In this document: positions 1-36,950 of the stretch, in pieces
Layout of the letters: each line of letters starts with the position of its first letter
Position numbering within the stretch: the stretch's first letter is position 1
DNA from: Spirogloea muscicola
Lineage: Eukaryota > Streptophyta > Zygnematophyceae > Spirogloeales > Spirogloeaceae
Reading direction: 5' to 3'
DNA: 43,272 nt
Assembly (NCBI GenBank): GCA_009602725.1
Contig: WELB01000205.1
Span: forward strand, 65,374 to 108,645
The notes under the pieces: generated by a model
What the model saw: the letters and a program-made list of their open reading frames with translations, nothing else
Told to the model about the DNA's origin: nothing
Database searches by the model: none
Program-made: the position numbers and the translations under genes

Positions 1-190
1 GAAGAAGAAAGTGCTCGCCCATTGAGAATAGGGGCTGGAACAACCAGCCCGAAAAAGAATGAACAGAGTACGAGAAGGGGGCCAGGGGAAGCGCTAAGTA
101 ACAGAAACAAAGCTGCTACGAGACACTCAGTAACCCCTGCTAAGCAGCCGCAGATCAGAGATGCTGGGCTCCTGGAAGTGGGTCCCGAAG
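1..190 (-). mobile_element. LINE 3' end, tail subtype A
   Basis: On the minus strand this reads the last codons of the LINE ORF (ending SISDLRLLSRGY, stop at 129-127), a short 3' UTR and the stem-loop GGGCTGG-TTGTT-CCAGCCC, and ends in GAGCACTTTCTTCTTC. Bases 1-182 are the reverse complement of about 14992-15173 with no mismatch that I could find by eye, so this is a young copy. It is 5'-truncated after about 55 coding bases, and the window edge may cut its 3' end. Subtype names A to D are mine, based on tail sequence. Confidence 0.85.
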
Positions 191-1110
191 AAAAGCTCTT
201 CCCAGCAGTGGGCAATGATCGGCTATCCCAGAGAAGAACGAACATGCGAAAAAGGGCCACAGGGGGCCCGGAAAATTGGCCCGCCGGCGTGGGCGCCTCG
301 GCATTGATGGCGAACGGCGGCCGCCGCCGCGTGCAGCGGGGGTGCCGTGCCGGCCCGGCGGCGCCCGCCCGGGACGGCAGGTGGCCCCGGCCCGGATCCC
401 ACCTGCCGGAAAGCCGCCTCCGCGCTCGTGCTCCCGCAAGCCCCGGGGATCCTTCCCGGCCATTAATTGTGCGACCTGTTTCCTGGCTGACCAGTCACAG
501 CCATTGCCATCGTTTTAGAATGACTTTTTCTTTGGCCCTACCCCCCCGCTTTTCAGGCCCATTCTTTTTCTGGGCCGACCAATGACAGCGACCGCCATCT
601 ACCGGAAGAGTCCTCCTCCACCAGCTCCCAGATCTCTTGGGGAGTCGCTACCAGGAGACCAGTTTCTCCGACCTGCGGTTACTGAGGGCCACTTCACACC
701 GGGGTCGGATGGTCGCGCCGAGGGGTACGTGTCGCGCGATGAAAGGAATTGCCGGGCTCACAACCTTGCGCGCCTAGTCGCGGTCACCCATCACGTAGGC
801 ACCACATCGGACGGTGACTAGGATACCTTGTGCCCCCGTTAAGGAGGAAAACGCGCCGTTTGCACATGTGGCGCTGACCAGGACACCTATAACGGCCGTT
901 GAGGAAGAAACGGCGCCGTGTGCCACGAGGGCAGTCGACTTCCCGGCCCTCCTCCCGAGGAGTCGACCACCCCCCCCCCTTCCCCCACTCCGCACGTGCA
1001 GGCGGCCTCAGCCTCCGTGGCGGCGACCGACCCCCTTCACCGGGCGGTCTACACGATCTTGACCGACCGACCCGGTGTGAAGTGGCCCTGAGTTCCCCGT
1101 TGCGTCGTCT
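191..1110. other. Spacer with degenerate LINE remnant and a diverged tandem duplication
   Basis: No gene is recognised. Around 660-695 the plus strand reads SFSDLRLLR, matching the LINE C-terminus without its RGY stop, so a decayed copy is present. Segments 818-867 and 877-927 are diverged tandem copies with a period near 59 bases; both carry a GTT(A/G)AGGA(G/A)GAAA core. The part at 260-470 is very GC-rich and resembles nothing I know. The long ORFs across it are what GC-rich sequence gives by chance. Confidence 0.4.
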
Positions 1111-2330
1111 TGTGTCTAGCTGTGTCATTCTCTTTTTCGGCATCTTTTTTTTGGCTCTTTGGCTTTTATCCATTCTTTTCGGGCTGGTCCTCTGCCAGCC
1201 CCTCTTCTCTACGGGCACGCACATTCCTCTTTCTATCTCTGTGTCCTCTCTCTCTCTTAGTCGTTCACACTCAGGCTCCCTCAGACCTTGTCCATTCCTT
1301 TGGGCTGGCCTTTCCCAGCCACCAGTCAATCTGGTCGCGCTTTTCTTCTCTCTCGCGGCTGTGACCCGGGTCACAGGGTCCACCCGTTCCCGGCACCCAC
1401 TTGCGTGGCTGCGCGGTTCGCGCCATCCGGCCACTACGGACCCTGTCTTCTCTTTCTTTGGATTTTGTCCATTCTTGCTGGGCTGGCTTTGCCCCCCAGC
1501 CACCAGTCAATCTGGCCGCGCTTCTTTTTTGCCAGGCCGCCCACTTCTCTATGGGCTCCTCTAAGTCAGGCCTCCGGCTTTCGTGGCGGCGCTCCAGCTG
1601 CTCAGTTAGCTTGTCGGATTTGGTTGTGCTCATCCGTGGATACTAATGTCACCCTGTTACCTTAGGAACCTTAGCATAGGGCTCCATATTATGTAGCCTT
1701 GTTTAGTTTGCACTAGATTCTGTCTGAGCAATGTATTGGTATGAGTTGGCCTCCCTTTCATTTCATGCGCTCCGCGCGCCTTTCCTCTCTGTGGGCGAGC
1801 ATTTTCTCTGGGCTGGCCTCTTCCCACTTCTTCTTTTCCCCAGCCACGACCTCTTCCGCAAAAGCCTCTTCTACTTTCCAGCCCTTATTCTCACTGGGCG
1901 AGCACTTTCTTCTACTCGCAACCATCGCCACGTCCGGACAAACTTCTTCCAATCTGCACCTTGTCCAGCCCTTTGGACTGGCCTTCCACAGCCATCGCCT
2001 CTCTGTGTAAGAGCTTCTGCTCTTTCCTCTGGGCTGGCCTTTCAGTGCCCCTGCGGACGAGCTCCTCTCCCTCGCCCTTTCCCTTTGTACTCCGGCTCCT
2101 TCAGACCTTGTGCATTGCTTTGGGCTGGCCTCTCCCAATCACCAGTTAATGTGGCCGCGCCTTCTCTTTCCCTCAGCAGCCCCTGTTGACCAGGATTCTT
2201 GAGTTGCTGGCCAAGCGCACCCACCTGTTCTGCCCAGTGGTCTGCACTTACGTCTCGGTGCTGCCCCCTCGACCTTGCCACTCCTTTCAGGCTGGCTTGT
2301 CACAGCCACCATCTCCTTCTGAAGGAGCAT
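1110..2330 (+). repeat. Array of LINE-tail stem-loop modules (about eight, plus orientation)
   Basis: Repeated modules read roughly CCTTGTCCATTC, then TTTGGGCTGGC, a short loop, CAGCC, and a pyrimidine-rich end. They lie near 1162, 1285, 1465, 1805, 1960, 2030, 2110 and 2275. Several (1285, 1465, 2110) share the downstream variant CACCAGTCAATCTGGCCGCGC. They match the 3' tails of the LINE copies elsewhere in the window but have almost no coding sequence attached, so they are severely 5'-truncated insertions or remnants. ORFs in this stretch are read-through of repeats. Confidence 0.75.
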
Positions 2331-2746
2331 CTTCTCTTTGCTGTGACACTGGCACGCAGCAGCGCTTCAACCGCTGCTGGGCATTCCCTTAAAGACCGCA
2401 CATGACAAACGCCATCCACGTCACAGTGAGTGCCGCCAGTGACATGGTTCCTGCGACTGCTTCCCGCACAGGCTCGTCATTGAGGAGCGAGTATGTGCAG
2501 CTCTCGTGAAGGTGTTTGACGTCCCCCAACATCTCACCACATCGTTGACCACACGACGGTCCAAGACAGAGCAACATGCGAGCTGTTGACATTTAAAGCA
2601 TGTGTGTTTATTGGCCTTGGCAGGCCAACAATGTTGGTTAAAGTCAGGGATCGTAGCCCAGGAAGACATTATAGGTTACTGCCCAGTTGGCAAGCACACT
2701 TTGATGGCGCCCCACAAGAGGCAGCCAGCCAGAAGATCTTCCAAGA
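2331..2746. other. 3' flank of the YrdC gene
   Basis: No coding region is recognised. It lies directly downstream of the minus-strand YrdC gene and probably holds its 3' UTR. No LINE stem-loop is visible. Confidence 0.4.
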
Positions 2747-5384: not shown

Positions 5385-5530
5385 GGCGGGCGGGGCCGGG
5401 CACGCGGCGCGCCGCCGCTGGGCCACGCACAGGCGAGCAACGTCCCCGCCGCCAAAGCCAGAACAGCCGAGCTGCTCCTCCCAGGCCGCTGCGTCAGCTG
5501 CTTCACTCGCCTTTCCGTGGCCTCCACCAG

Positions 5531-5830
5531 AAAGAAGAAAGTGCTCGCCCATTGAGAATAGGGGCTGGAACAACCAGCCCGACCAGAAAGCTGGTCGAGC
5601 CTTAGCGGGGGTGGCACAAGGTCTCGCCAATTTGCCGTCCGGTATTCGGGCATTAGTCAGCGACCTCCATGGGCTGACTCGTGGTTACTGAGTGGGCCAG
5701 CTTAGCAGCAGGTGATGTTCATCTGTCAGTGTGCTTGCCTTTTTGTGCTTGGCCACTCGGGCCCTCCATCACTCAATACACACTCCCATAGCATTCCGTG
5801 CCCTCGGGGCAGGGTTCACGGTTCTTCCGT
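5531..5830. mobile_element. Two LINE tail fragments upstream of YrdC
   Basis: At 5531-5582 a minus-strand stem-loop module (GAGCACTTTCTTCTTTCT end) carries almost nothing else. It abuts a plus-strand LINE end of tail subtype B (5583-about 5830), which reads QKAGRALA, then SDLHGLTRGY and a stop at 5689-5691. The subtype B tail follows (TGTGCTTGCC..TTGGCCACTCGGGCC). The two lie in the probable promoter of the YrdC gene, which starts at 5384 and reads away from them. Confidence 0.75.
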
Positions 5831-5862
5831 CGGCAGGGACAGCAAGGTGAGCTGCCCGGCAA

Positions 5863-7790
5863 TTGAAGAAGAAAGTGCTCGCTTGTTGAGGATAGGGGCT
5901 GGAAAAGCCAGCCCAAAAAAGAATGAACAGAGTATGAGAAGGGGGCCAGGGGAAGCGCTAAGAAAAACAAGCACACAGAGAAACAAAGCAGCTACGAATC
6001 ACTCAGTAACCTCTGCTAAGCAGCCGCAGGTCGGAGATGCTAGGCTCGTGGAAGTGGGTCCCCTGGCCAGAGCCAGAGGCAGCAGCGAGGGCTCTGCCGG
6101 CACGAAGGTGCAACGCCGGGGCCATAGACCTCTGCAGCGAGACGGCCAGGCGCATCTGATACACTTGCGCCAGCGACGGACCCGGCTGCAGGAAAACTCT
6201 ACCGGCTCCCCATGGAAGCGACGGGCGATGGTGTGGCGGGCGAGCTGGGTGAGCAGCTCGAGCCACCGAGCGCCCAACGCCCCATGGATGTCAATTGCCA
6301 ACGGGAAGAACTCGTCTTCCCGCGGATGGTCTGCGTACTTCAGCTCTTTAGCCCGAGCAGCGCAGGCGACCGCATACCCAGCCTTGGTGGCACATTGGGC
6401 TGGGTGTGAGCGGTCGTAGGCATCAGTGGTCACCACGTCCAGGAGAAGACATGGCCCGCCAACCTGTGGGGTGGCCACCAGGTCTACACACCGGGCGTGG
6501 AGACCGTCGGCCCTTTCCTGGATCGGCATGATGCCGGAGTGCTCCGCTGCCACGGAGAAGCCAGCCTCCAACAAGATGCCATGCATCGCATCGCGGAGGC
6601 GGTCGTGGGCCGCTGTCCGCTCGCCGCCGTGGGCGCAGCGCAGAACATGAGCGGCCAGCTCCCCAGACTCGGCCCCTCGCTCGCCACATTCACATTGACG
6701 CACGCCCTGGAGACATGGAGGCGGTAGCCCCAGGAGCCGGTGGACGGCAGTGCGAAATACGTCATCGGGGAGAGCGAGGGCGTCATTGATGGGGAGGGCC
6801 TGAAGCCACGCCGCTGCCCCCGGGGAGGAGGCTGATTGAAGTCTCGCGCGCCCGCGCAAGTCGGCCTCGGGGAGCTGCAGCACGGCGGTGGTGTAGGCGG
6901 CCTTGTCGACCACACTTGCGAAGCGCGCTTGGACGCGCAGGTCAGCAGCGTGCGCGAGGTGCACGAAGGAGACCGCCTGGCCTGCCAGGTCCGGGTGCGC
7001 CGCGAGCAACTCCTGGTGGGCGGAGCGAAGCGACACCTGGAACGGCAGCGGGCCTACGTTGACCTCCACCACCGCCTGCTCCAGTGCACACCGGCCGTGG
7101 ACCATGAAGCGCTGGGGCACGGAGGCGGCAGTCTGCTCCCAGCTGCCGAGGTATGCAGCCCGGCAAGAACGGGCGAGCGAGCGCAGGCCGAGACCACCGT
7201 GGCTGAGGGGTAGCGCCGCCTGGTGGATAGCGGCTGGCGACTGGAGGAAGCCCTGGTGGCGGACCAGGGCCGCCAAGCTCGCCACCATGCCTGCATCAAA
7301 ATTTGCGTACGCCGCCGACGCCCCTGGGGACGGCGGAGTGGCCCGCGTCAAGTACTGGGGCCGCTGCCCAATGGCCTTGGTCAACATGGCCAACGACAGC
7401 TGCATGTCGTCCAGCTCGGGAAGCCGGGCCGCAGGCTGAAGATGCTCCGCAAGGCGGGCTCGCAGCTGTCCCTCCACGAAGGACGGCGCGCCGATGAGTA
7501 CCCCCAGCAGGTTGAAGCCATCTCCTGGAGTCTGGCAGCCGGTGGGCAGCGTCAGGGTGGGTGGGAGGCCGCAGAAAGACCAAGCCACGCACTTTGACGC
7601 CCGGGTGGACAGGCCGAGGGTGGCCAGCTGCAGCTCAAAGGTGATGAAGGCCGCCGCCACGTCTTCCGGAGGGCCGACTATGGTGGTGTCGTCCGCGAAG
7701 GAGGGGAGTAGGACTCCTGGGTGTGCCGCGGCAGTTGCCTGCAGAGCCCGGTGGTGAGCGAGCGCACGCCGCTGGGTCGCTTGCTCAGGT
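5863..7790 (-). mobile_element. Longest LINE copy: partial reverse transcriptase, zinc finger, RLE-like domain, 3' tail
   Basis: This is the best copy of the family here. On the minus strand it opens within the reverse transcriptase palm. The catalytic box FADDTTIVG lies near 7700-7674. The thumb/connector region follows, then a CCHC-like finger (CECG..HVLRC, near 6710-6650). Next comes a nuclease-like block with VDLVA, 14 residues between two Asp, and DVVTTDA (near 6470-6415), and then KYADHPREDEFFPLAIDIHGALG. A finger followed by D-x14-D is the layout of RLE-type LINEs (R2/NeSL group). A frameshift near 6190 moves the true C-terminus (VSLQRSMAPALHLRAGRALA to LLSRGY) into another frame, with its stop near 6003-6001. 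The 3' tail with stem-loop runs to 5863. It is 5'-truncated and frameshifted, so it cannot move by itself. Confidence 0.85.
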
Positions 7791-8400
7791 GTTCCGCATG
7801 CGACTGTCCGTCTCCTTCTGATATTTCCTGGCTCAAGCAGTGCACATGCGGACAGGCCGCGCTTTGGCTGCTGCTTCTGGGCCTCGTCGAGGTGCCTCTT
7901 TTCCACACATTGCTGGCCACGCAGTGGGAGGTGCTGAGCAGAAAAAGCTCCGACACTACTCAGACTACCCCCGCAGTGACCACCTCCTCCCGGCCGCAAT
8001 CGACACTTTCGGCTGCTTGGGTCCTCGCTTCCATACTCTACTCGAGAACATAGCGAGTCTGGGATATGCACGACGCGAGGATATGCTCCCAGCCCAGATG
8101 GGTATGCCGGCAGCCTATCTGTCATTTCTGCGACGTCGTGTGTCAACCTGTCTGCAACGAGCTCAGGCGTATGCTCTGCATCAGAAAGCTGGTCGAGCCT
8201 TAGCTGCTGGCACAAGAGCTAGTCAATTGCCGTCCGGTATTCGAGCGTCAGCTAGCGACCTCTATGTGCTGACTCGTGGTTACTGAGCGGGTCAGCTTAG
8301 CAGCAGGTGACGTACATTTGTCCAATGTGCTTGCCTTTGTACTTGGCCACACATGGCCTCCCCATCTCTTAATATACACGCATTTCCTTTTTTCCAGCTG
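7791..8400 (+). mobile_element. LINE C-terminal copy, tail subtype B
   Basis: The plus strand reads HMRTGRALAAASGPRRG, then KLRHYSDYPRSDHLLPAAID (the element's conserved K-Y-x-x-P-x-x-D block) and FLRRRVSTCLQRAQAYALHQ, and ends ASDLYVLTRGY with a stop at 8284-8286. The tail has GTGCTTGCCTTTGTACTTGG and a second small stem-loop GGCCA-CACA-TGGCC. It is head-to-head with the 5863-7790 copy. The first 45 residues repeat part of the C-terminal motif, so two truncated copies are probably joined here. The long minus-strand ORF reaching 8215 is a fusion that reads across this copy in antisense. Confidence 0.8.
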
Positions 8401-9350
8401 CAAGTCACTCCGACTTGCGGCTGCTGACCCGGGGTTACTAAGCTCCCCATCGCTGTGGTTTCTTTATTTTGGCGCCTTTCGACCTTGTCCAATCTTTCTG
8501 GGTCGCCCATTCACAGCCCCCGCCCCCTTTGGCAGAGCTCACTTCTTCCCTTCCCTGTATACTGAGTGGGTCGGCATTTGAAGGTAGCTCATATCGTGCT
8601 GAATTGTGCTTGCGTTCGTACTTGGGCCGCTCTGGCCCTCCTTCACTCAACACACGCTCCTTCAAGCTCACTTAGTAGCAGGTGAATTGCCAAATATAAG
8701 CAAAGCTTTTCGAAGGTTCGTTCCACCGGCACAGGACGAGTCCGTTCCACTGGCCTTTGGTGTGCACGGGGCTTTCGGGTCTCAGTGGCTAGACCTGTTG
8801 ACCCGGCTTTCACGGCGCACAGTGTCTCGCAGGCGAGGCGAGCAGGCCGTATTCAACGCGGCTGGCTCGCTAGTGCAGGTGTTTAGCATGCGCCCGTCCA
8901 TATCCTCCAGAGGTCAATGGCCCACGCCTTGCATCTGCTTGCTGGCCGTGCTCCCGCTGCAAGCGTCTGCTTTCGGCAAGGGGACTGCTTTCCGGTGGCT
9001 CGTCTTTCTGACTTGCGTTTTTAAGTAGAGGTAGCTTATTAGTGATTCAGCTACATGGTACTCGTTTGGTTTCGTGGTTTCTGCGCTTTCGGGCACTTCG
9101 GACCTTGTCGATCCTTTTGGGGCTGGCTATTCTCAGCCCTCGCCCCTGTGATTGAGCTTACATTTTTAATGAGAAAGCAAGCGGTCTTGCAATAGAAGGC
9201 AACGAGCTGTGAGAGGCCAGCCAAAAGGAATGGACAAAGTCTGAAAGGGCCGGAAGGCGCAAAACGAGACTTCTTCCCGTGACTTCTGCTATTGGCCTCG
9301 CTTTAATATCATGCGCACCGCGCGCCTTCTCTCTAATGGACGCTCAGTAA
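8400..9350 (+). mobile_element. Further LINE fragments, mostly plus strand
   Basis: A degenerate stem-loop module lies near 8475-8550 and a B-like tail near 8590-8680. At 8690-9030 there is a C-terminal coding remnant in more than one frame: ESVPLAFGVHGAFGSQWLDLL, RLSRRTVSRRR, then the QRSMA..LRAGRA region. Stem-loop modules follow near 9100 (plus) and 9200 (minus: GGCCAGCCAAAAGGAATGG). All coding parts are frameshifted. Confidence 0.7.
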
Positions 9351-9750
9351 CCTCTAGTCAGTTAGTGCGATAGGCGGTGATAGCTGTGTATTCCCAATCC
9401 AATAAGAGAGTTCTACATCCAAGAAGGCGGAATTGGCCAGCACAAAAGAATGGACAACATCCGACGGGGCCAGAGAGCAATTGGAGAACGTAAAAGGTCT
9501 TGAACTTGGTCTTGGACAGATGGGCCAGGAAGCGAATCTTACGCTGTAAGACAAATGCTATGATGGATGGCTTCTTAACCACCCTAGCAAAATTTGCCGT
9601 CCGCTATCTGGACACCGATTAGTGGAACCAAATGTGCTGACCCTCAGGCTACTGAACGGCTCGGCATAGCAGCAGGCGGCTAACATTTGTAGATGTGCCT
9701 GCCTATGTACTTGCCCCGCCACCGCCCTTGCGCTCACCACTTGTTATAGC
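9350..9750. mobile_element. Decayed LINE tails in both orientations
   Basis: A minus-strand stem-loop remnant sits near 9430-9470 (GGCCAGCACAAAAGAATGGACAA reads as its flank). A plus-strand subtype B tail is recognisable at 9590-9745: LPSAIW corresponds to the LPSGIR block, followed by GCAGGCGGCTAACATTTGTAG and GTGCCTGCCTATGTACTTG. No coding capacity remains. Confidence 0.55.
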
Positions 9751-10385: not shown

Positions 10386-10690
10386 GAAAGAAAGAAGTGG
10401 CACTCCCAATGGGCGCAAGGGCTGCGAAAAGCCAGCCCAAAAAGAGTTGACAAAGGGTCGGAGGAGCCTACACGCGTTTAGCAGCTACGAAGGGGCCTGA
10501 AGTTGCTCTGTCAGAACAGGGGGAGGATGGATCACTCAATAGTTACGAGTGAGGAGCCTCAGATCCGACAGACTAGCTGCCGGAAAATTGTCCCCCTGAC
10601 GAAAGGCGGAGGCCGCAGCGAGAGCACGGCCAGCACGCAGATGCAGAGCGTGGGCCATGCACCGCTGAAGGGATACTTACCATCTAATAC
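10386..10690 (-). mobile_element. LINE 3' end, tail subtype C
   Basis: Reading minus from about 10690: QRSMA-like residues with HALHLR..GRA (reverse complement of GCAGATGCAGAGCGTGGGCC), then a decayed SVGSEAPHS end, the tail with CGTAGCTGCTAAACGCGTG, and the stem-loop GGGCTGGCTTTTCGCAGCCC followed by TTGCGCCCATTGGGAG. It matches the ends at 16200-16470, 34560-34870 and 17245-17500. Confidence 0.7.
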
Positions 10691-12018
10691 GATGTGACAT
10701 TACTTGTTGTACTTGACGAAGGATAGTTGTGGTATGAGGTCATTTTGACCTAAAACTGCAAAAGAGAAGAGCTGATCATATCAATCGATTGTATATCATA
10801 GGTATTTAAGCACAAGTAAGCTTCAAAGGCATGCCTTTACTGCCAGCCTAACAAAGTAAGATTCTTTCACTATTCATTGAGAATCTCCCGCTCAGATGGT
10901 ATCAGCAGCTGTTAAGCACAAGGTGCAGATGGAGCACCTGCGCTAATTCTCTCCTCTGCATCTCAGCTTGCAGAATGTGAGACGAGTCTGGGCGAGCCAC
11001 CGCATCAAGTTCAGGCTGGCATCACAGCTCACTCATTCCTCTGCGCCACACCTCTCGAAGTCGCAAAGCTACCCGTAGCTTTGCGGATCTGTGCCGGTTC
11101 ACTTTGGCACTTAGAGCAGCCCATGCAAAGCCCTGGCCTGTGCACTGGTCTGCGCAGTTCTCCACTTTATACAGCATGTATCATATTTGCACATCAAGCC
11201 TTCATGCTGACATCAAGGTCCTATGTCGTGTGAGACTCATGGACAGTGGACCTGCACCCTGCTGCGTGTACTCCTTTCCTGTATTAAATACATACTTGGT
11301 GATTGCTTCAAGATGCTCATACCCAGAAGGGTGAAATTAGGAGCCATTCCCGTTATTCTACAGGTTAGCCTTGAAAGCAACCATTTGGCCACATCGCCAC
11401 CGCGGATCAAGAGCCCATTAGCCTTGCTGATCAGCCCACACTGCCTGCAAAGCATTGTCAATGCCGCAGCCTGCACTTCCGAGCAGTGCATCAAGCGCTT
11501 CAATGGCAGGCACATGGAGCCCGGCACAGGAGGTGCTGCAAGGACCACAAACTCTGCTGGTCCAGAGCTTGTGCTTGTAGACATTCTACTGCCACGTGAC
11601 GGCAATTGCAGCTGACACCACGACAAGCCTTGCTGAAGCACCTCAGGCAAGGTGATACGAAGTTGGCATGTGATGACAACAAGGAATGTCAAGCTCAATC
11701 AAAACTTAGGTTTATAAAGCCCGGCTAGCAGGGCACAGCACGGCAGGGGGACATAAGAGGTCCTCAGCAGAGCATAAGCTGGGCATGGCCTCATGCCCAT
11801 GCCCCGAGTGTAGGACGCCCAAGGCATGGATGAATAAGCAATGGCATCCTGCAGCAAACACGGCGCGCACTTGCGGCCGACGCAGCCGCTCCTGAAGCCC
11901 TCTAAGAGAGCAAAGCAATTGCTCAAAAACATGGACAGCGGCTGACGCGCTGCTCTGCTGCCAGTAGAGCAACACCAATTAATCGTCGGCGGCATAGAGA
12001 GGCCGAGTGCTTGCTTAA
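10691..12018. other. 3' flank of the LBD gene
   Basis: About 1.3 kb without a recognisable coding exon or LINE module. It is AT-richer than the neighbouring exons and lies directly downstream of the minus-strand LBD gene, so part is probably 3' UTR. ORFs up to 153 codons occur here but match nothing I know and have no exon-like context. Confidence 0.4.
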
Positions 12019-13595
12019 TCAGTGCATAAGGGGCAAAAATGAGTGAGACGGTGCGTGGTGGCGGTGGGCGTCCACAGCGACGGCACCACTGGGCTGCCAG
12101 GGCCCAAGCGCAGTGACTTCCGGGGGGGCAGCGTCCACGCTGAAGGCGCCAGAAGCTGGCGCCGATGGCCACCCTGATGTGACGCTACCGCCGCTGGCGC
12201 TGGCACTGGCGCTGCCATTTGGTGAGGAGCTGCAGGTTATGGGGCCTGCCAGACATGCCCCCGGCCGACCATGCCGCAGGCCCATGCCGAGCGTAAGTTG
12301 AGGTGCGAGGCCCGGCAGAAATGACTGCCCGCCGCCGGTGCTGGCGGACTGCGGATAAAGCCGCCGCGCCACAGGGGCGATGAGCTGCTGGTCAGCTGGC
12401 TGCGGCTCGTTGCTGCTGCGCTGACGTTGCAGCTGCTGCGACGAGCCGTCGTGCTGCGCCGTCGTGCATGACGGGGGGCTGCTCCCTCCACTTTCCTGAT
12501 CAAGGTGGTGGGGCAGCGGTGCAGCATCCCGGAGCTGCTGGGATGGTGCAGTGCTATAGCCTGCATACGACAGATGCGCCGACAATCCAGAGTCAGCCTG
12601 CCGGCAGGGGTTGCAGAAGACAGCTGACGGCGAGCGTCACTTTTTATCGGCCACGCAAAGAGGTAAGTCGGGAGAGCGTACCAAAAGGTGAGGCAGAGGC
12701 TGTGGCAGCTGCATGGCGTGACGCCTGCAGTGATGCAGCCTGGTACGTGGCGGCCTGGAACGCTACCACGGCGGCAGAGTGCGCCATGTGCGCTGCGCCC
12801 ATGGCGCCGAGAGGGTTCATCGGCATCGGCCAGCACGCCATTGGGGCAGGCCCCATGGGGCAGCTCAGTGGCCTAACGCCACCGCTGCTGCTATCGCAGC
12901 TAGCGCCGCCGCCAATCCCGGCATTTGCTACGGCCTGCGGCGGGGGTGAGAACAGTGGCCCTGCCGGCTCCGCCAGGCTCTGCAAAGGATGACCACGAGA
13001 CGTCCATCGTCACGGCTTTGACATGGTACATGGCTTGTTCCGCTGGCATCCTGCAGCACCTGGCTCGCTGCCTTGGCCATGCATCAAAATCCTCGGCTTA
13101 GCTAGGGTAGCCCAGCAACAACTGCCTGCGGCACGCCGAGCCATCAAGCAAGCAGCAACCTGGAGGGTGCCGCCGCTGAGGACGCAGTCGACGGCGGCCT
13201 CACACATGTGCCAATTGTTGGACCAGAGGAGGCCGACGGACCCAAACACCGGGTTGATCGTCCGCCCGCACGCCTCGTACAGCAGCGACTTGAACACCTC
13301 TGCCGCCGTGCCGCATGGCCACGCCTATGACGTCAGCGAGCAGGCAATCGCTGGACGTGCCTGCCCAAGGCCTCACCTGCGACAGCAGCGGGCGACCAGA
13401 GCAGCACTCACCAGGCCGCTGCCGCTCGGGCACGGCGGCGATGAAACCGAGCAGGCCGGCGCGGCCAAAGAACTTGGCGAGGAAGACTGTCGCATGGCCC
13501 TGCGCGTCGGGCCCCTCTATGGCAGAAAGGCAGGGCCGCAGGACGCACATATCACTGCAGCCCTTGCGCAGGACGCGGCAGCCGTTGCAGCTCAT
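12019..13595 (-). CDS. Class II LOB-domain (LBD) transcription factor, 4 exons, 387 aa
   Basis: Family role: plant-specific DNA-binding regulator in the nucleus; land-plant class II members (LBD37-42) act in nitrogen and metabolite responses. Exons (minus): 13412-13595, 13160-13299, 12682-12979, 12019-12560; phases agree (1, 0, 1). Exon 1 starts [15 protein letters not shown], giving C-x2-C-x6-C-x3-C exactly (Cys 3, 6, 13, 17), then the GAS block [20 protein letters not shown]. Exon 2 continues [20 protein letters not shown] and ends GGTLQ. The class I leucine-zipper coil is absent, as expected for class II. The long C-terminus is low-complexity (Ala, Ser, Gln, His) and has [13 protein letters not shown], which loosely resembles an EAR repression motif (my inference). 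The start is the conserved MSCNGC; the longer upstream ORF is not needed. Looks intact. Confidence 0.92.
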
Positions 13596-14051
13596 GCTGC
13601 TGCTGGCATAGGCGGGGCGCTCCCCTTCCGGCGGCTGGCGGCGGCAGGCGGCTGCCTGACCACCGGCGGCCGGCCCCAACACTGCCGGCGCCAGCCACCA
13701 GGCTAGCCCGGCGTACAAGTCCTAGAAGTACGCTCCAGCGTGCTCGCCAGCGCAAAGCGCCGTGTCACCTGGCGTCTGCGTTGGACATGGACGCTGCCAG
13801 GCAGCAGCACGAGGGTGAGGCCCAGCCGGCCATGCAAGGTGCTGGCTTGCGCATGCCCGGCAAGCAGCCCCGAGCGCAGGCGCGGCCCGCTGCCAGCCGC
13901 GGGGCGAGCGGCAGGTCGGACGCGATGGCCTGCCCCGCCATTGGTGACCGTCCCGGCCGGGCCTGCCAGTGCAGGAAGCTCACTTGCAGGGCGTTAGCGG
14001 AGCAGACTCTGGCGGCGCCACGGCGCAGGGCTGCCGGCGGGAGCCGCTGGC

Positions 14052-14950: not shown

Positions 14951-14979
14951 GTCCCCTTGCTGACGTATCAGTCCTTTNC

Positions 14980-27095: not shown

Positions 27096-28727
27096 CTAAG
27101 GTGGGGGTGAAGGCGGCAAGAGGCGCAAGGGTGTGGACGATGGCCCATGGGTGGTGGGCACAAGTCGCGGCGCTGTGGCGGCAGTTGCACCAGGAAGGGG
27201 TCCCAGCTCACTAGCCTGCCCGAGATGCTGGCAGGACGGGCACAGTGTGATCATCACTTGATGCTGCACCGTAGCTGGCGGCTGCTGCGGCAGAAGCTGT
27301 GGCAAGGCCTGCTGACGCGCCTCCTGAGAGAAGGCAGTAGAGAGAGAGCAATCATCAGCTTCAGCTGTCAACCTGCCGAAACGGAGGTGCTCACCCAATA
27401 CAACATGCTGCACCCAATAAGACATGCTGCACAAAGCGCAACGTGCCTAAGAGGCGTGCAATCCGAGCCCACCTCGAGTAGGTTCTGCAGTCGCCAATTC
27501 TCAGCCATCAGCGCCTCGCAGTGCTGCCGCAGCGCCTCGCGGTCAGCCTCAGTCTGCTTCACCTTCGTGCGTGCACGTCGGTTCTGCAACTCGAGCAGCC
27601 AGTCAGAGACCGTTGCTCTGTCAGCAATTTGGATTGTGAATGCAGTTTGTCTCAGAAGTGCTGCCAACCGGTGGTCTTCGCACGTTAAAAGGGCAAGAAG
27701 GGTCGCCCATACCTGGAACCAGACCTCGACCTGCCTGATGCGAACACCGAGCTGGGCGGCGAGCGCGCCCTTGTGCTTGGGCGTCAATCGCTGGTGCTTC
27801 TGGTAGATGTCTTCCAGCACCGCAAACTGGTCCTTGGTGAGCCGCAGCTTCTTGCGGAATGCAGCCGCGCTGCCGCCCTCGTCCTCGCCGTCGCCATCCT
27901 CCTCGCCGCTGGCCTCCAGCTCGTCCCTGCCAGCCGCACGCTAGCTGGGAGCCTGAGCACCTGTAGCACGAGCTTATGGGCACGAGCAGTGCTGCCCTAC
28001 AAAAGCACACGCTTGCCAGCACACACACCTGGCTGACGTGGTTGATGTGCCTGCGGGGCTGGTGACGGAGCTAATGGCAGCCACATGCCCAGCAGCATTG
28101 GAGGGCGCCGGAGTGTGAGGTTGGTCGCCGACGGCATTCCCTTCCTCGAGCTTGGGCAGCGTCAACTGACCGAGAAATGACGGCAGTCTGCCCTGGCCGG
28201 CAATGCCCGGGTGGCCGGGCAAGAGCTGAAGCCGCTGCGCCCCCTCTGCCTGGGGGCTGCTCGAGGGGCTGCTGCCGAGTGCCGCTGTCCCAAACACCGG
28301 CAGCGACGATGGCGGCGGCGGCGGCGGCGGCGGCAGTGGCGGCTGTGGCAGCCGCAGCTCCCGGAGGTACTCCCAGGGAAGGCCGCCGGCGGCGGCGACG
28401 GCGGCGACGGTCATGTCGTGCTGCTGGTAGGTGAGCAGCGCGGAGGGCGCGGACATGTCCTTGGCGGCGCTCTTGCTGGGCGACGACGACCCCCCGCCGC
28501 TGTTGCTCAGGCTCTGCGACCACGTGCTGAGGCCGAGCGACAGCGTGTCGGGGTCCAGCGGCCGCAGGTCCAGCGTCAGGAACGACGCCTTGTTGAGGTG
28601 GTGGTGCGCGCCGCTGCCGCCGCCGCCGTCGCCGTGCCGGCCGAAGCCGCCGCTGCTGCCGCCACCTCCGCCGCCGCTGCCGCTGCCGCTGCAGCTGCGC
28701 TGGACCTGCTGCGACGCTGGTGGGGCT
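27096..28727 (-). CDS. Class II HD-Zip transcription factor, 5' end lost in assembly gap
   Basis: Family role: nuclear DNA-binding homeodomain/leucine-zipper dimer; class II members are usually repressors in light and auxin responses. Exons (minus): 28030-28727 approximately (runs into the gap; last base 28029), 27713-27926, 27473-27583, 27096-27323. The first exon is Gly/Ser/Pro-rich and holds [12 protein letters not shown], an LxLxL (EAR-type) motif as in class II N-termini. Exon 2 has [20 protein letters not shown] and RQVEVWFQ. Exon 3 has [20 protein letters not shown] and the zipper (L-x6-C/L heptads to RLQNLLE). Exon 4 has ITLCPSCQ, the class-defining CPSCE motif with Gln for Glu. The intron inside the homeodomain at WFQ|NRR is the family position. 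About 417 residues are visible; the start is unknown. Confidence 0.92.
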
Positions 28728-29329: not shown

Positions 29330-29680
29330 CCTCTTGCACAGCCTTTCTTCTTTGTGGCTTGGGCGCCTTCCTGGCCGTCTCGCTGCAGCGGTCGATGTCC
29401 CGCGCGCTGCACCTGCGGGCCGGCAAAGCCCTCGCTGCTGCCTCTAGCTCTGGCCAGGGGACCCACTACTTTCTTCTTCCAGGAACCTAGCGTCTCTGAC
29501 CTGAGGCTGCTTAGCAGGGGTTACTGAGTGATCCGTAGCTGCTTTGTTTCTTTGTGTGCTTGTTTTTCTTAGCGCTTCCCCTGGCCCCCTTCTCGTACTC
29601 TGTTCATTCTTTTTTGGGCTGGCTCTTCCAGCCCCTATCCTCAATGGGCGAGCACTTTCTTTCCGGCCCTCTGCACCTTG
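29330..29680 (+). mobile_element. LINE 3' end, tail subtype A
   Basis: The plus strand reads LAVSLQRSMSRALHLRAGKA, then a frame change and SVSDLRLLSRGY with a stop at 29525-29527. The subtype A tail follows, with the stem-loop GGGCTGG-CTCTT-CCAGCCC (29617-29635) and GAGCACTTTCTTTCC. It lies just upstream of the HD-Zip gene, beyond the gap. Confidence 0.8.
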
Positions 29681-30312
29681 CTCATTCTTCTCGCTGGTTT
29701 GTCGGATTGAGCCTCCTCACTCGTAACTACCGAGTGGTCCATCCTCCCCCCCTACTGCCGTAGCTTCTTCAGGCCCCTTCTTCCATTGTCCATTCTTTTT
29801 GGGTTGGCTTTGCCAGCCCCTCTTCTTCTCGCCCCTTTGTAGCTGCTAAGCGTTTTTGGCCACGCGCGCGCTGGCCGCGCTATGGCTGCTGCTTCCGGGT
29901 TTGGGCAAAGTGCCGCTTTTCCTTCTTCGAGTTACGCTGATCTTCTGTTGCTCACACGTGGATACTGAGCTTCCATCTGACTCTCCCTTTGCACCATCCC
30001 GTGTAGTCCTAGTTGTTCGGGGTCGCTGGCGCAAGTGTATCGAATGCGCCTGGCCGTCTCACTGCAGAGGTCTATGGCCCGGGCGTTGCACCTTCGTGCC
30101 GGCAGAGCCCTCGCTGCTGCCTCTGGCTCTGGCCAGGGGACCCACTTCAACGAGCCTAGCATCTCCGACCTGCGGCTGCTTAGCAGAGGTTACTGAGTGA
30201 TGCGTAGCTGCTTTGTTTCTGTTTCTTAGCGCTTCCCCTGGCCCCCTTCTCGTATTCTGTTCATTCTTTATCGGACTGGTTTTTCCAGCCCCTCAATGGG
30301 CGAGCACTTTCT
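29681..30312 (+). mobile_element. Three chained LINE 3' ends, subtypes C, D and A
   Basis: 29690-29850: a C-type end (RIEPPHS frame; SGLSLLTRNYR in another) with a stem-loop near 29800. 29855-30010: HARAGRAMAAA-like residues ending YADLLLLTRGY, stop at 29966-29968, subtype D tail truncated. 30015-30312: QVYRMRLAVSLQRSMARALH, ending SISDLRLLSRGY (stop 30194-30196), subtype A tail and stem-loop with a shortened 3' side. Confidence 0.75.
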
Positions 30313-31205
30313 CTAGTCGTTCGCACTCAGGCTCCCTCAGACCTTGTCCATTCCTTTGGGCTGGCCTTTCCCAGCCGCCAGTCAATCTGGCCGCGCTTCT
30401 TCCCGTGCTTCGTAGTGTAGTCCTTTTTACGGCACTTCTTTCTTTGGCTTTGGACATTCTTTTTGGGCTGGCTTTGCCAGCTCTTCTTCTCTATTGGAGT
30501 AGGTCTATCTTTGGCCCCTTCGAACCGTTGTCAATTCTTTTCGGGCTGGCTTTTTACAGTCCTTGCCCACATTGGAAGTGCCACTTCTCTTCTAGACCCT
30601 CCCGTCATCTGGCCCCTTCGAACTTTCGTCAATTCTTTTCGGGCTGGCTTTTCACAGCCCTTGCCCCCATTGGGAGAGCCACTTCTTCTGGTTAGAAAAC
30701 AGAGCTCAGGAACAGGTCATCCGTATTCCTGGGCTGGCCAATTACAGCCATGGCCCTCATCCTGGAATAGTCTCTCTCTTGAAGATGTTGTTGAAGATGG
30801 TAGAGGCTGTGTAATTATGAAGTTTTTCCTTTGTGGCACCTTCTTGTGGCCTGGGATATTCTCCATTCATTTCTGGGCTGGGCTTTGCTAGCCCCTCTTC
30901 TTCTTGTGGGCTGGCTTTCCATGCTACCTAGGGTGAAGTGGTTGCCCTACATGGTACTTGCTTCGTTGTTTGTTTCAGCGCTCCTCGGCCCCTTCGGACC
31001 TTGTCAAATATCTCCGAGCTTGCTTTTCACAGCCCTCATCCCCCTTGGATGAGCTTACATTTCACTGCCCTCGCCCGCCGGGCGGTGTTTCCTATTTTCA
31101 AGTTCTTTGGACCTCTCACGAGCGAGGCCAGCCTTCCAGCAAGGGGACTGCTTTCCAGCGGCTAGTCTTTCTGGCTTGCGGATGCTGACTAGAGGTCACT
31201 AGATG
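30313..31205 (+). mobile_element. Stem-loop modules and decayed LINE end
   Basis: Modules with the stem-loop lie near 30340, 30455, 30535, 30620, 30735 and 30860, all on the plus strand. Those at 30535 and 30620 share GGGCTGGCTTTT(C/T)ACAG(C/T)CCTTGCCC. A C-terminus SGLRMLTRGH with a stop near 31199-31201 ends the island. Confidence 0.7.
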
Positions 31206-31738
31206 ATGTCACATGTGGTTTATATGTGGTACTTCTTTGCTTGTGTGTTTCAGCGCTTCTCGGCCCCTTCTGAGGCCGCCCCTGACAAATAGGAGTGGAC
31301 AAGGTCCAGGGGCCAGCACTGAGTAGGACCAGACGACCGGAGTCCGAAGGGGGCAGCACCTACGATGAAAGAGGGTTCGTGAGCCTGCTTTTGGATGTTC
31401 AGTCTGCCACCCAACACAATACCATCTTGGCGCGTGCTCAGGGAGGGCGCCGGGCTTGCGCTCCTCCGCGGTTCTCTCCATCACCCCAAACCCTGCTCTG
31501 CAGCACGAACCCCGCGCCCCACCCAAGACCACCTGCGCGCACCACCACGCTGCTGATGCTGCAGCTGCTCTGCAGGCTGTGTCAGGGTGGCACGCTGCCC
31601 AGTCACCCAGGGAAGGCCTTGGTCCCTTCGTGCCAGCAGCACCACTGCTCTGTCAAGCAATGGTCGTGCCGCCCTCAATATTCCAGCTGCTGGAGCTCGG
31701 GGCACAATGGATGGATTCTGGCACCCATCGGTTATCGA
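31206..31738. other. 3' flank of the left GT92-like gene
   Basis: No gene is recognised. The first 80 bases still resemble LINE tail (TTCAGCGCTTCTCGGCCCC). The rest is GC-rich and lies directly after the stop of the minus-strand glycosyltransferase. Confidence 0.4.
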
Positions 31739-34063
31739 TCAGGCACCCACATCGTTTATTGGTGGCAGGTGCATCCTTCTCCTTATCTCCACAGCAAGAG
31801 GCTGCATGCTGAGCTCCGGCTGCACTTCAGACAGAACCTGCTCGTTGTCTGGGCCAAATTCTGTCAGCCTGGCGCCCCAGTAGTGATTAATTCGGGCCTC
31901 CTCCTCGGGCAGTACGGTTGTCTCCCCGCTGCGCATGATCCACTTGTGCGGCTGCTTGGACGGGATGGCCAGCAGGTCGTCCAGCCTCACCAGCAACTTG
32001 GTCCGCGCAGGATAGTCGTGCGTCCCCTCCAGCCAATGCTTCCGTCTCTAATGAGCAAGGAGGGCACATACCACAGGCACAGACAGGGTCAGGACGCCCA
32101 ATGACGCCCGCACCATCAGCAGCCCTCGTGGCTGGCCCCTCCAGGTTCCACTTGGGCTGCTCACATGTGTAGGTCCAGGGCACATCACAACTAATAATCA
32201 TTCACAACAGTCCAAACTTCTGTGACCTGCGACATCTGACAGGTTCGAAGCCTGACACGAGCCTGCTGTGCCCTTCCAACACGCTGGCTGCTTGCTTGAT
32301 GGGGGTGGGCATGCTTTCTGCCAGGGTCCCCATGATGGAAAGATAGACCTCAAGCAGCAACGGTGGAAGTAGCTTCTTGGCACCCCACGCTGCTCATTGA
32401 CAGCCTGCTTCTCGGCACAATTACTGTTTCTCGGCAGAAGCAGTCATTGCGAGGCAATACCTGGTAGCGTTCAATAAGCAGGTGAGATTGGTCCCGTTCT
32501 GGCGTCCCAAGAAATAGGAGGCCCCGTAAAAGGATCTGGAAGGCAAGCAGCCGTCCTCTTTGGGTCAACACCTGATGTGGGCACCAGCATTAGCAGGATT
32601 CCAAGCTCTTGGCCAAGGCACTCACACAAAGGCAGCTTCACGCTGGGAGCCAAAGCACCTGAGTCGCCGACGGATAGGCAACCTTGACTCTCTCGATGAG
32701 GCGAGTCAGGAACCCAGGCTGCGCATCCTTGAGGACCACCGGGTACTCGTCCACATCCATTGCCAGCAGCCACTGGGGCACCGCTAAAGGCACTTGCTTA
32801 CGTATGGACGTGCCCATGGGAAGGACGCAGTGCTAAGCTTGCCAAGATGCATGCCCACGTGATGAGCACACCTCAGTCGTGTCGCTGTAGTGCAACACGC
32901 AGTGAGCAGCGGCATTGTCCTGCTCAAAGTGGAAGTCATCCATGAGGTGGCCTGGAAATAGGTGGTGGAAGCGGTGGTAGGAGACGAACTCCTCTTTGAC
33001 ATAGGGCCGCAGGGCCTCTTCCTGGCACACACAGTCAGATTGGACCCAGCAGCGCAGACAAGGGCATCAGCACAAGCTGAGTGACAAACGGCATTGCATA
33101 TTGCCTGGGGTCCTCAGTGCCCACAGCTTCATGGCATTCTCTTCTGTGGTGGCCCCATTCAATGGCTCCAGCAGGAAACTACGGAGCAGCTCCTCAGAGG
33201 CAGGCAGGTCAGCGATGATAGCAGGCCGGCAATTATTTGGCCCCCTGGCAAGGCTCGTACCTGAGACTCCTCGTCGCTCTTGGCAGTGTCGTACCAGAAG
33301 ACGTGCTCCATGCCAGCATAGCGCATGTACTCGAGCCACTGGCGGACCTCGAATGACGTGATATTGAAGAGATCGGCCTTGAAGATCCGATTGAAGATGA
33401 GCGCTGAGAGGAACCGCTGCTGGTTTCCAGCGGCCTTTGGGCGGCTGCCAGCAGCTGCAGGTGGCCGTGGGACCATCCATGCTGACTGCGGGCTCAACTG
33501 GACGTCTAGGACGCCGGCTTGCCGCGAGTAAGCTGGCCACAGCAGGATGCCGGGAAACGCCTCCCGTGTGATGGGCTCTGCAGCCCTGCCGCCGCCGGTG
33601 GCGTCGTCGGCCGCGACTGCCAAGGCCGCGGCGCTCCTCGTGGAGCCGGCTGGGAGTCCTGCCCGCCCAAGCGCCTGCTGACAATCAGCTCGGCGGAGCC
33701 TGCGGCGCCAGCGGCGCGGCAGCTGCCGCTCAGTGGCACGCGGTGGCTGCCACCCCACCCGTCAGAGCCGAGCTGCCGCCGCCGTCGGGGCCAGGCTCTG
33801 CCTCGCCGATGCGGACCTGAGACCCACGACAGCGGCGGCGCCCACATCAGTGGCGGCCGAGGCGGAGGCGCAACCCGGGAACGCTATGCCCGCCGCCTCC
33901 ATCACAGCCCGGCGGCGGCAGGCGGCGGCGTAGCGGCCAGCGCACCGCCGGCGTTCGCCAGCCAAGCCCCAATCACCAGGCGGGAGTTGGAGAGGAGGAC
34001 GACGAAGGTGGCCACAGCCAGGGCGCCCGCCGCCAGCGCCAAGCGGAGGACCGACGGCAGCAT
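31739..34063 (-). CDS. Glycosyltransferase family 92-like (DUF23) protein, left paralogue
   Basis: Family role: Golgi glycosyltransferase that adds a sugar to glycans or cell-wall polymers; acceptor unknown. Secure exons (minus): 33261 to about 33530 (RFLSALIFNRIFKADLFN, WLEYMRYAGMEHVFWYDTA), 32872-33021 (YHRFHHLFPGHLMDDFHFEQ..HC), 32659-32772 (WLLAMDVDEY, the DxD-type metal/nucleotide-sugar motif), 32461-32535 (LLIERYQ), 31739-32047 (RRKHW, then RINHYWGARLTEFGPD). Phases agree between these exons. The 5' part is unresolved. An ATG at 34063 opens LRLALAAGALAVATFVVLL, a good signal anchor, which would make it a type II membrane protein, but the exons between 33530 and 33950 are uncertain. Paralogous to the gene at 37340-39576, with different intron positions. 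An N lies at 34128. Confidence 0.8.
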
Positions 34064-34234
34064 CTCGCGCCCGCCTAGCGGCGCTCACGCTGCCGCCGCC
34101 GCCGCCGCCCGCCGGCTCGGCGGGCGGNCGGCGGGCGGCGGCGGCAGGCGCGGGGCTGGCCCGATGGGCAGCCCGCTCGCAGACGCCAGGTAGAGGACAC
34201 GTGTCTGCTGATAACAATGGACTCTTCCCAGTAG

Positions 34235-34310
34235 GAAAAGCCAAAAGTTCTTCCAGTAGAGGGGCGTTGGCTGCGATTGGCCAGCCCAGAAAAAAGCATG
34301 ATCCATGCCC
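34235..34310 (-). mobile_element. LINE stem-loop module upstream of the left GT92-like gene
   Basis: TTCTTCCAGTAGAGGGGCG, then TTGGCTGCGATTGGCCAGCC and AGAAAAAAGCATGATCC form a minus-strand stem-loop module with diverged arms and no coding sequence. It lies about 170 bases upstream of the candidate start at 34063. Confidence 0.6.
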
Positions 34311-34880
34311 TGGGGTTTAGGGCCAGAAAAGCGGTATACCACCCAGCTACTGAAGTGGCCACCGGGTGCTCAATATTCCCTAGTGGCCACGCAGTGAGAA
34401 GTGCAGAGCTGCACTACTTTGACCACCACCTGAAAGGAAGTGGCTCCTCTAAAGTGGCTCGACCTGCTGGCCAGGCTTGCGCGGCGCTCTGTGTCCCGCA
34501 GGCGAGATGAGCCGGCTGACTTCAGCGCCGCTGGCTTGTGGGCCCAGGCATATCGCATGCGATAGTCAGTCTCCCTTCAGCGGTCCATGGCCCACGCCTT
34601 GTATCTGCGTGCTGGCCGTGCTCTGGCTGCAGCCTCTGGCTTTCGTCAGGGGGATAGTTTCCCGGCAGCTAGTCTGTCGGATTTGAGGCTCCTTTCTCGT
34701 AGCTACTGAGTGGTCCACCCTCCACCCGTTCTGACATAGCATCTTCAGGCCCCTCCGTCATTGTGGCTTTAGGTCCCTCCGTCATTTGGCCCCTTCGCAC
34801 CTTTTTCAATTCAAATTTGGGCTGGCATCTCACAGCCCTTGTCCCCACTGGGAGAGCCACTTCTTCCCAAAGGGGGAAAA
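34311..34880 (+). mobile_element. LINE C-terminus and subtype C tail
   Basis: Coding remnants in several frames: GHAVRSAELHYFDHH, then WLDLLARLARRSVSRRR-like residues, QRSMAHALYLRAGRALAAAS, and ASLSDLRLLSRSY with a stop near 34705-34707. The tail has GACATAGCATCTTCAGGCCC and a stem-loop at 34817-34840, ending AGCCACTTCTTCCC. Confidence 0.75.
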
Positions 34881-35164
34881 TGTAAGGAACCTCACCCTAA
34901 ACACGCAGTTAGGGAGAGTGTCCTTATTGAGATCGAACGTAGGGGGTTTAGGAGCCAACCCACTACACAGGCAAAGCACTAGCGCAAAGGGGCTGCAGAA
35001 GACAGGCCCTGTGGCGCCGCCGTCCGGTGGCAACTCCACCTCCTGGGCGCAGGCCGGCGCAGCAGGCCCCGCAGCAGAGTGCGGCGGCGGCTGCGGCTGC
35101 GAGCAGCGGCAAGGCAGCCTGGGCTTCACCGGCTTCGAACTGATTGTTGAGCAACAGCCCCCAA
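34881..35164. other. Spacer between LINE copies
   Basis: No recognised gene or LINE module. It contains GC-rich, Gly/Cys-coding sequence near 35010-35110 that could be a host remnant, but nothing identifiable. Confidence 0.3.
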
Positions 35165-35510
35165 GGCTCCTCGTGCTTCCCCGTGCCACCCCCCCTCCAG
35201 GAAGTGACGTGTGTATTAAGAGATGGGGAGGCCATGTGTGGCCAAGTACAAAGGCAAGCACATTGACAAATGCACGTCACCTGCTGCTGAGCCGACCCGC
35301 TCAATAACCACGAGTCAGCACATAGAGGTCGCTAGCTGATGCTCGAATACCGGATGGCAATCGACAAGCTCTCAAACTACCAGCCAAGGCTCGACCAGCT
35401 TTCGGATGCAACGCATGCGCCTGAGCTCGCTGCAGACAAGCTGACACTCGACGTCGCAAAAATGACAGGTAGGCAGCCGGCATACCCATCTGGGCTGGAA
35501 GCATATCCCC
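35165..35510 (-). mobile_element. LINE 3' end, tail subtype B
   Basis: The minus strand reads DMLPAQMGMPAAYLSFLRRR, then CLQRAQAHALHPKAGRALA and ASDLYVLTRGY, with the stop at 35303-35301. The subtype B tail follows, with GGCCACACATGGCC (about 35231-35244). It closely matches the plus-strand copy at 8075-8385. The 5' side stops abruptly at about 35510. Confidence 0.8.
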
Positions 35511-35745
35511 TCCAGGGGTGTGAGCGGGTCGCCCCAAGGCCCGCCTTGCGGCAGGCCCAAAGGTCCTCCCTTGAACGGGTGGATCCTGGCGAGGGGTATT
35601 TCGAACGGGCGGGGCCAACCTCTGGGTGGGGCACCTGCCCGTCAAGCCAGCCCGCCACCTGGCGGGCCCGCCACTTGTCCCAAATGGCCGGTTATGTAAC
35701 GCCACCAGTGCCATGTGGCTTAAGCAAACGGCTGGTTCATTACAG
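35511..35745. other. Unassigned ~235-base insert between two LINE copies
   Basis: This GC-rich segment starts CAGGGGTGTGAGCGGGTCG, which resembles the terminus of some plant hAT-like non-autonomous elements. No matching inverted terminus is visible at the other end, so the class is unknown. It does not match the LINE. Confidence 0.35.
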
Positions 35746-36950
35746 GCAAGGGCTGTGAACAGCTAGCCCAATGAGAAGTGACAGTATGAAGGGGCCAAAA
35801 AGCGCTGTCTCAGAGATTGGGTAGGATGGATCCTTGGTAAACACGAGTGAGGAGCCGCATATTCGAAAGACTAGCAGCAGCGTCGTAGAATGGCGCGCTA
35901 TGCGCATGAAAATGAAAGGGAGGCTAATTCGAGCCTTAACAGTAGTCCTCATGATGGGGCGGCAGGACTACCCCGTAGCAATCACCTCCTACCAGCCGCA
36001 ATGACACTGCGGCATTGGACCTTGTTCATTCTTTCTGGGCTGGCCTTTCACAGCCTCCGCCCCCATTGGGAGAGCTCACCTTTGTTTGGGTGCATAGGTC
36101 CTCCTTGATATCCCTACATGAGAAAATCAAAAGTCTAGTATATGCACGACATGAGGATATGCTTCCAGCCGAGATGGGCATGGGGCGTTGTCGTTTTTAC
36201 GACATCGTGTGCCTTGTCAAATCGTTTCGGGCTGGCTTATCACAGCCCTTGCCCCCAATAGGAAAGCCCTTTTCTTTCCTCTCCCGGGCCGATCACTTCT
36301 TCCCATGCGCCATGGACATATACGGCGGCTACGGAACGAAATGGGTTGCCCTCCTCCATCACCTGGCACAGCGTGTCGATGCCCGCCAGCGTAGTCGGGC
36401 GGGTAGCTTAGGGCATTCTAGCATCCCGCAAGACATCGTTGCCTGCTTTAGAATGCCGCTATCATTGAGTCTACAGTGCTCCCAGGCACTCGGGATACAC
36501 CAGCGTGCTGGGCGTAAATAAGGGCAGGCTAATGGCTTCCGTGGTGGTGGTCTGGCTCCTCAGCTTAGCTAGTCAGATACTTATGTGCTCACTCGAGGAT
36601 ACTAGTGCCCCCCTTAGCCAACTCATTACCCCGTTACCAGGACACTTGTAAGGCTAGACTTTGCCATCTCTTTCAATTTCATGCGTACCGCGCGCCTTCC
36701 CTTCCTCTAGGTGAAGCGTGTTGACACTTTGGAGGCCACCTGGGCCTCGGCGGTGCAAAGCAAACCCTTGGGACCACTGGAAGGACATAGATAGAAGCAA
36801 GCGCGGCCAGCTTAACTGGTGGCCGGGAGATAGACGCCTGCGGTAGCAGGACACAAGACCCGAAGACACCGAGGTTCCAGGAAGTGCTTGCACCCTGTTT
36901 CTCCCCTCAGCTCAACTGTCTTCTACTGCTGACACGGGGGTATTGAGGGG
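35746..36950. mobile_element. Chain of LINE fragments, mainly plus strand
   Basis: 35746-35890 is a minus-strand stem-loop and tail remnant. 35950-36210 (plus) has a B-type remnant (LPRSNHLLPAAM) broken by a stem-loop module at 36030-36090. A module at 36210-36275 follows, then 36290-36605 reads DHFFPCAMDIYGGYGTKWVA and LLHHLAQRV and decays. 36810-36945 ends QLNCLLLLTRGY with a stop at 36943-36945. Copies are interleaved and none is intact. Confidence 0.7.

Follow-up and report, generated by a model that had tools for sequence, protein, structure and literature searches.

The DNA considered here, 43,272 nucleotides of contig WELB01000205.1 from Spirogloea muscicola (assembly GCA_009602725.1, positions 65,374 to 108,645; hereafter the window), carries islands of long interspersed nuclear element (LINE) copies that are joined and nested around a common type of 3' tail. 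LINE-annotated DNA occupies 11,814 of the 43,272 bases, and 41 tails make up 26% of it. These tails are the 3' ends of mostly 5'-truncated LINEs belonging to several families, and the copies that bear them follow one plan: an open reading frame (ORF) ending in RGY-stop or similar, a short untranslated region (UTR), a GGCTG/CAGCC hairpin with a variable loop, and a CTTC-like end. The families, labelled A, A', B, C, D, E, and G, have distinct UTRs and ORFs. Most copies are 5'-truncated, some are reduced to the tail alone, and together with the common 3' end they display target-site duplications (TSDs) of varied length, the combination by which LINEs are recognized. An earlier note on this DNA, made from the letters alone, had proposed that 5'-truncated LINE copies were inserted repeatedly into one another around a 3' tail, and nested copies with TSDs bear this out.

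The tail hairpin is strongly over-represented in the window, where the exact pattern GGGCTGG-N3..8-CCAGCCC has nine matches against 0.03 expected from 100 shuffles. A covariance model with a 6-bp stem, seeded with 31 hand-picked aligned tails and run on the window with filters off, returned 61 matches at an E-value (E) of 5 or less and 41 at E<=0.01; about ten of the latter are new, the other 31 being the model's own seeds. The count agrees with the roughly 40 modules of the earlier note, which had also correctly described a variable loop, the flanking sequences (..TTGTCCATTCTTTT precedes the hairpin; GAGCACTTTCTTC and GAGCCACTTCTTC come after it), and both orientations (30 tails on the + strand, 11 on the − strand). 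The 7-bp stem GGGCTGG/CCAGCCC that it reported is unusual, present in its exact form in only 8 of the 41 tails. What is conserved is a 5-bp core, which 31 of the 41 have as GGCTG/CAGCC or with one base changed, combined with loops of many kinds. Such a conserved 3' stem-loop is a property of stringent-type LINEs. GGTTACTGAG or a one-base variant, lying upstream of several tails, represents the final codons of an ORF ending in RGY-stop or similar. Tails end in CTTC/CTTT-like sequence and lack the poly(A) 3' end of Zepp and L1. The most downstream tail at E<=0.01 ends at 36280, within the range of 1-36950 given earlier, and at the same threshold the model found no tail between 17673 and 29590. 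Some single folds show a second hairpin behind the first, its form varying among families. An Rfam scan gave no matches at gathering scores, and tail-pattern searches of a viral contig collection and of a genome contig collection gave none; a protein scan of the viral contigs yielded three pattern matches with no relative among them.

The longest LINE copy, of family A (5868-7775, − strand), has lost its 5' end and retains the C-terminal part of a reverse transcriptase (RT) ORF, a motif like that of restriction-like endonucleases (REL), the 3' UTR, and the tail, with a frameshift near the ORF end. FADD and the following RT residues were recognized by eye; the RT part gave no Pfam hits and no usable PDB hit, the copy starting inside the RT domain. 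The sole PDB sequence match, to a DNA topoisomerase (E 2.5), was discarded. The ORF includes a zinc/REL-like motif, C-X1-C-X12-H-X3-C-X8-AHD-X19-E-X17-CVD-X14-D (6437-6694, −), followed by KELKY. The published REL pattern, C-X1-3-C-X7-8-H-X3-4-C-X9-10-RHD/N-X19-33-E-X9-21-R/KPD-X12-14-D/E (PMC12857005), has the same order, from which family A departs in X12 for X7-8, X8 for X9-10, AHD for RHD/N, and CVD for R/KPD. A relaxed pattern, written around the hit itself, matches the family A ORF and none of 20,000 shuffles. These residues support, without proving, a REL endonuclease in family A. Family B retains AD-X14-D and KERKY, while family E has a different 3' end with a GGCC hairpin, as in the copy at 7909-8390 (+), whose ORF ends LTRGY-stop.

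Direct contact between copies and their breakage of one another, both noticed earlier, are visible at base level. For pairwise copy extents, only alignment rows between separate stretches were used, the input stretches overlapping. One B copy (15200-16924, +) reads as five pieces (15200-15284, 15521-15537, 15859-16083, 16494-16588, and 16671-16924), and an uninterrupted B copy at 14420-14977 (+) provides the paralogous empty site for two of the insertions that break it: a C copy in the B ORF (16084-16493, +; target CTT(C/T)ACCGCC) and an A tail, also in the B ORF (16591-16664, −), flanked by the TSD CTCTTT on the + strand at 16585-16590 and 16665-16670. Its first two pieces, assigned by reading the translation together with the alignment, suggest that the copy starts further upstream, with two more blocks interrupting it, one of E/A (15285-15520) and one of A (15538-15858). 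The A copy of the second block is itself interrupted in its hairpin (pieces 15538-15668 and 15805-15858, +) by an A' copy (15669-15804, +) with a 10-bp TSD, CTTTTCGGGC, at 15659-15668 and 15805-15814, and the A tail resumes downstream of the insert. In another A copy (15406-15520, +), the tandem of about 40 bp at 15441-15519 can be read as a tail-only A inserted into the CTTTT loop of the hairpin, a plain tandem duplication being the alternative. In a layered island at 29370-31273 (+), an old tail holds a C copy (29693-29777, 29836-29861, and 30517-30588), which in turn holds a tail-only A' as well as an A' copy bounded by the TSD TTTGGCC (29855-29861 and 30510-30516); the A' copy with this TSD has A and B inside it, and a second C follows the first. 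The layering of nested copies is our interpretation of the alignments.

Other copies and islands extend this picture across the window. A tail-only A copy lies in an E-family ORF (5535-5582, −), its TSD reading CCAGAAAG on the + strand (5527-5534 and 5583-5590) and CTTTCTGG in the sense of the insert, and a C copy at 10387-10698 (−) stands in unannotated non-LINE DNA with a possible 11-bp TSD, AATGTCACATC, and extra bases on its 5' side. Tails and tail fragments of A', B, and others are arranged head to tail at 459-2341 (+); G, E3, and D copies accompany two − strand tails at 8475-9467, with tail-to-tail contact at 9170/9171; and an island on both strands at 34234-36280 contains C, E, G, and other copies. 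A 5'-truncated A copy at 1-186 (−), whose start adjoins a degenerate tail (187-255, −), is identical over 185 bp to 14987-15171 in the opposite orientation; both may be A insertions of very recent date, or the start of the window may have been duplicated in assembly.

Several further features were observed within the islands. At 687-1087, an element of about 400 bp resembles a miniature inverted-repeat transposable element inserted just past a LINE copy's stop codon: its termini are inverted repeats (GGCCACTTCACACCGGG), and CTGAG flanks it on either side. At 29455-29495, an A copy has an extra ACTTTCTTCT relative to two other A copies, matching the A tail end and possibly representing a 10-bp tail-only insertion or slippage. 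A UTR-like motif around CATGCGC..CGCGCGCC is common to 1746-1790 and 9292-9334 (87% over 45 bp) and, by eye, occurs also near 16170, 35910, and 36680; perhaps it marks a further LINE family.

The earlier note named as its own refutation an array that was a satellite merely sharing sequence with the LINE. Satellite repeats or local tandem duplications might account for the two short, two-copy tail arrays reported by Tandem Repeats Finder (15441-15519 and 15754-15856), but tails in the window are unevenly spaced and mixed in family and strand, and every module leads into a UTR or ORF of its own, making such an origin for the arrays very improbable.

Whether insertions favour tail ends was assessed from 29 hand-curated 5' junctions, drawn from copies whose family extends further in another copy; a junction was scored at a tail if its position relative to the end of one of the 41 tails, on the same strand, was between −10 and +15 nt. 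Degenerate tails and E-type ends were not scored as tails, and an automatic segment list was left out because it counted the far sides of nested insertions as new 5' ends. Eight of the 29 junctions fall at a same-strand tail end, compared with a mean of 1.14 when junctions were placed at random on LINE-annotated bases with strands kept, and none of 20,000 draws reached eight. Random placement on islands including their gaps gave a mean of 1.4 and a maximum of seven in 5,000 draws, and widening the scored interval to ±20 nt gave nine junctions (mean 1.97; 0 of 20,000 draws). When the −10 to +15 nt interval was slid in 25-nt steps to ±300 nt, between zero and six junctions were found elsewhere (six at −200) and eight at zero. 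Another nine junctions are placed, on our reading, at or within degenerate tails, E-type ends, or the hairpins and loops of tails; the degenerate tails range from 2024-2075 (+; E 0.0076) through 187-255 (−; 6.8 bits, E 0.025 for that short stretch) to 15174-15199 (+; E 1.8, not significant). The preference for tails within the window is real, but partial and common to several families. The element had been thought to favour its own tail; the excess at tail ends stands, whereas "its own" is too narrow, since seven of the eight strict tail-end junctions join different families, the remaining one being C behind C.

The excess at tail ends also bears on the possibility that insertion is close to random and that selection clears genes, leaving LINE-rich intergenic DNA as a safe haven in which copies collect and become nested with no preference for tails. 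LINE ORFs and UTRs do account for about one-third of the junctions, gene domains are found only between islands, and the C copy at 10387-10698 landed in non-LINE DNA, all as expected from such a process; tail-end junctions are nevertheless several-fold above random placement within LINE DNA, and we regard it as an unlikely explanation. A comparably low probability is assigned to template jumping, in which an RT stops on one RNA and jumps to the 3' end of another, producing a tail-to-head join in one event. Non-LTR reverse transcriptases are known to jump in this way (PMC8857657); tails joined to truncated heads are its expected product, and most joined copies have no clear target duplication between them. 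However, seven of the eight strict joins connect different families, and an insert within a hairpin with the host tail resuming behind it, as at 15669-15804, requires a second event.

Target sequences also bear on where insertions land. For ten insertions the pre-insertion site could be read, either in the 5' duplication copy or in a paralogous copy; three ambiguous cases were omitted (the 10-bp insert near 29467, C in the old tail at 29693, and A in the A' UTR at 30020). Five of the ten targets begin with CTT(T/C): CTTTCTGG, CTTTTCGGGC, CTTTT, CTT(C/T)ACCGCC, and CTTC. Among 3,066 sense positions of tails, 166 (5.4%) are starts of this motif; the corresponding rates are 1.1% per strand for the window and 1.4% for the + strand of other LINE DNA, which puts its density in tails at about five times the window level.

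We consider it probable that the islands represent accumulated target-primed reverse transcription by several related LINE families with a common tail plan, landing often at CTT(T/C). Each family would carry the same 3' arrangement, in which the hairpin has a stem common to all and a loop particular to the family, and a CTTC/CTTT-like end follows. The RT would read this hairpin and begin at the tail, usually halting early and so leaving 5'-truncated or tail-only copies. The target would be nicked, presumably by the REL domain, without strict site specificity and often where it reads CTT(T/C), and a primer ending in AAAG or GAAG could then base-pair to the CUUUCUUC-like RNA terminus and guide priming. 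With about four CTT(T/C) sites per tail, older LINE copies, and their tails above all, would therefore serve as landing places for any family. It is also possible, if not the outcome we would expect, that these families form a guild of REL-type LINEs within one genome in which an interchangeable tail is both the RT signal and, owing to pairing between its CTTT/CTTC sites and the RNA end, the best next target; the resulting islands would be intergenic, cross-family, and self-feeding, with no fixed site, telomere, or centromere.

A number of observations weigh against this account and must be set beside it. Twelve of the 29 junctions lie elsewhere (nine in LINE ORFs or UTRs, two in DNA without LINE annotation, and one undetermined), hand curation of the junction list is a source of bias, and tightening the limit to ±5 nt lowers the count to four junctions (mean 0.49; a value reached in 25 of 20,000 draws). 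Half of the ten readable targets, AAAGAG, TTTGGCC, GCCCC, GAT, and AATGTCACATC, do not begin with CTT(T/C), a motif that was chosen post hoc from few sites. The covariation test detected compensatory change in none of six stem pairs, with shuffles no worse, so that the hairpin rests on sequence conservation and folding rather than covariation; RNAalifold likewise kept five pairs for the 31 seed tails, none with compensatory change. The strict published REL pattern has no match in the family A ORF, and structure predictions from two models were too poor for use (mean predicted local distance difference test scores of 50.7 and 37.7).

The DNA around the islands was surveyed by translating five inter-island stretches in all six frames and scanning the products for domains. 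On the − strand these scans identified Sua5/YrdC (about 3.0-3.9 kb), a LOB domain gene (about 13.2-13.6 kb; 13200-13721), queuosine salvage (about 19.4-20.6 kb), a homeodomain gene with a weak HALZ (about 27.7-27.9 kb; 27368-27940), and RNA 3'-phosphate cyclase (about 40.2-43.2 kb), and on the + strand amine oxidase (about 21.7-21.8 kb); the same scans found no domain at 31.28-34.23 kb. Gene domains lie between islands, and the islands therefore alternate with them, an arrangement that does not suggest a single centromeric cluster. Outside the islands, 33283-33398 and 37850-37965 form an inverted pair in reading frames (116 bp, 79% identity), possibly duplicated exons, and the final 70 nt of the window (43203-43272) are all T, which is unusual for this DNA and may be a sequencing or assembly artefact.

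Among known systems, the one invoked for this DNA at the outset was Zepp. This LINE is of the L1 type and ends in poly(A) (PMC3747384); it is present as nested copies consisting mostly of 3' ends (PMC8226300) and, in Coccomyxa, as one cluster per chromosome (PMC3446292). The parallel with Zepp and Zepp-like elements of Chlorella/Coccomyxa and Chlamydomonas holds for insertion into existing copies and for arrays composed mostly of 3' ends. It fails for the non-A ends, the REL-like motif, the several families, and the islands alternating with gene domains, and the link is one of behaviour, not of membership. A Zepp-like centromeric cluster would share the nesting of 3' ends (PMC8226300), and the LOB and homeodomain genes hint at the green lineage; the lack of a poly(A) end, the REL-like motif, and the presence of several islands among gene domains within 43 kb make it highly unlikely here.

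Dualen LINEs have a REL domain, and RandI/Dualen elements carry both APE and REL endonucleases; no LINE copy in the window is full length, as comparison of the APE domain would require. The likeness to RandI/Dualen lies in 3' ends other than poly(A). Green-algal RandI LINEs are listed with the non-A repeat ends (ATT)n and (CTATTT)n, which differ from the ends of the window LINEs, and SINEX-2_CR, a paired short interspersed nuclear element, ends in (CTTT)n (PMC3747384). ZfL2 LINEs require their own 3' stem-loop, and in stringent LINEs the loop gives specificity (PMC4176376); the window tails resemble those of ZfL2/UnaL2 in a stem-loop near the 3' end whose loop identity varies among relatives. 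Self-nesting was not seen in the passages on these LINEs. Celine, a poplar centromeric LINE, forms truncated copies nested in one another, as in the window, but is targeted to centromeres, with TSDs of 10-30 bp and the target AAGA/AATA (PMC11288735).

Among the literature matches listed, this combination of features was not described in titles or the starts of abstracts, which does not itself show its absence. A close counterpart in behaviour may be CNL1, which is reported to insert preferentially into its own copies with a specificity left undefined (PMC12810828). CNL1 and MoTeR, fungal telomeric LINEs, are of the REL type and have 5'-truncated copies, comparable to the REL-like motif and the truncated copies of the window; their arrays are subtelomeric and lie beside telomere repeats, in contrast to islands between genes in a window where no telomere repeat was noticed in the sequence as read and no telomere motif search was made. 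Should the tail act at once as recognition signal and as landing site, islands would form without any chromatin targeting, from short pairing between RNA end and nicked target. Were this true, one mechanism would unite stringent tail recognition, self-nesting, and the sparing of genes, and the islands of S. muscicola would offer a comparison case for the centromeres built of Zepp and for CNL1 arrays.

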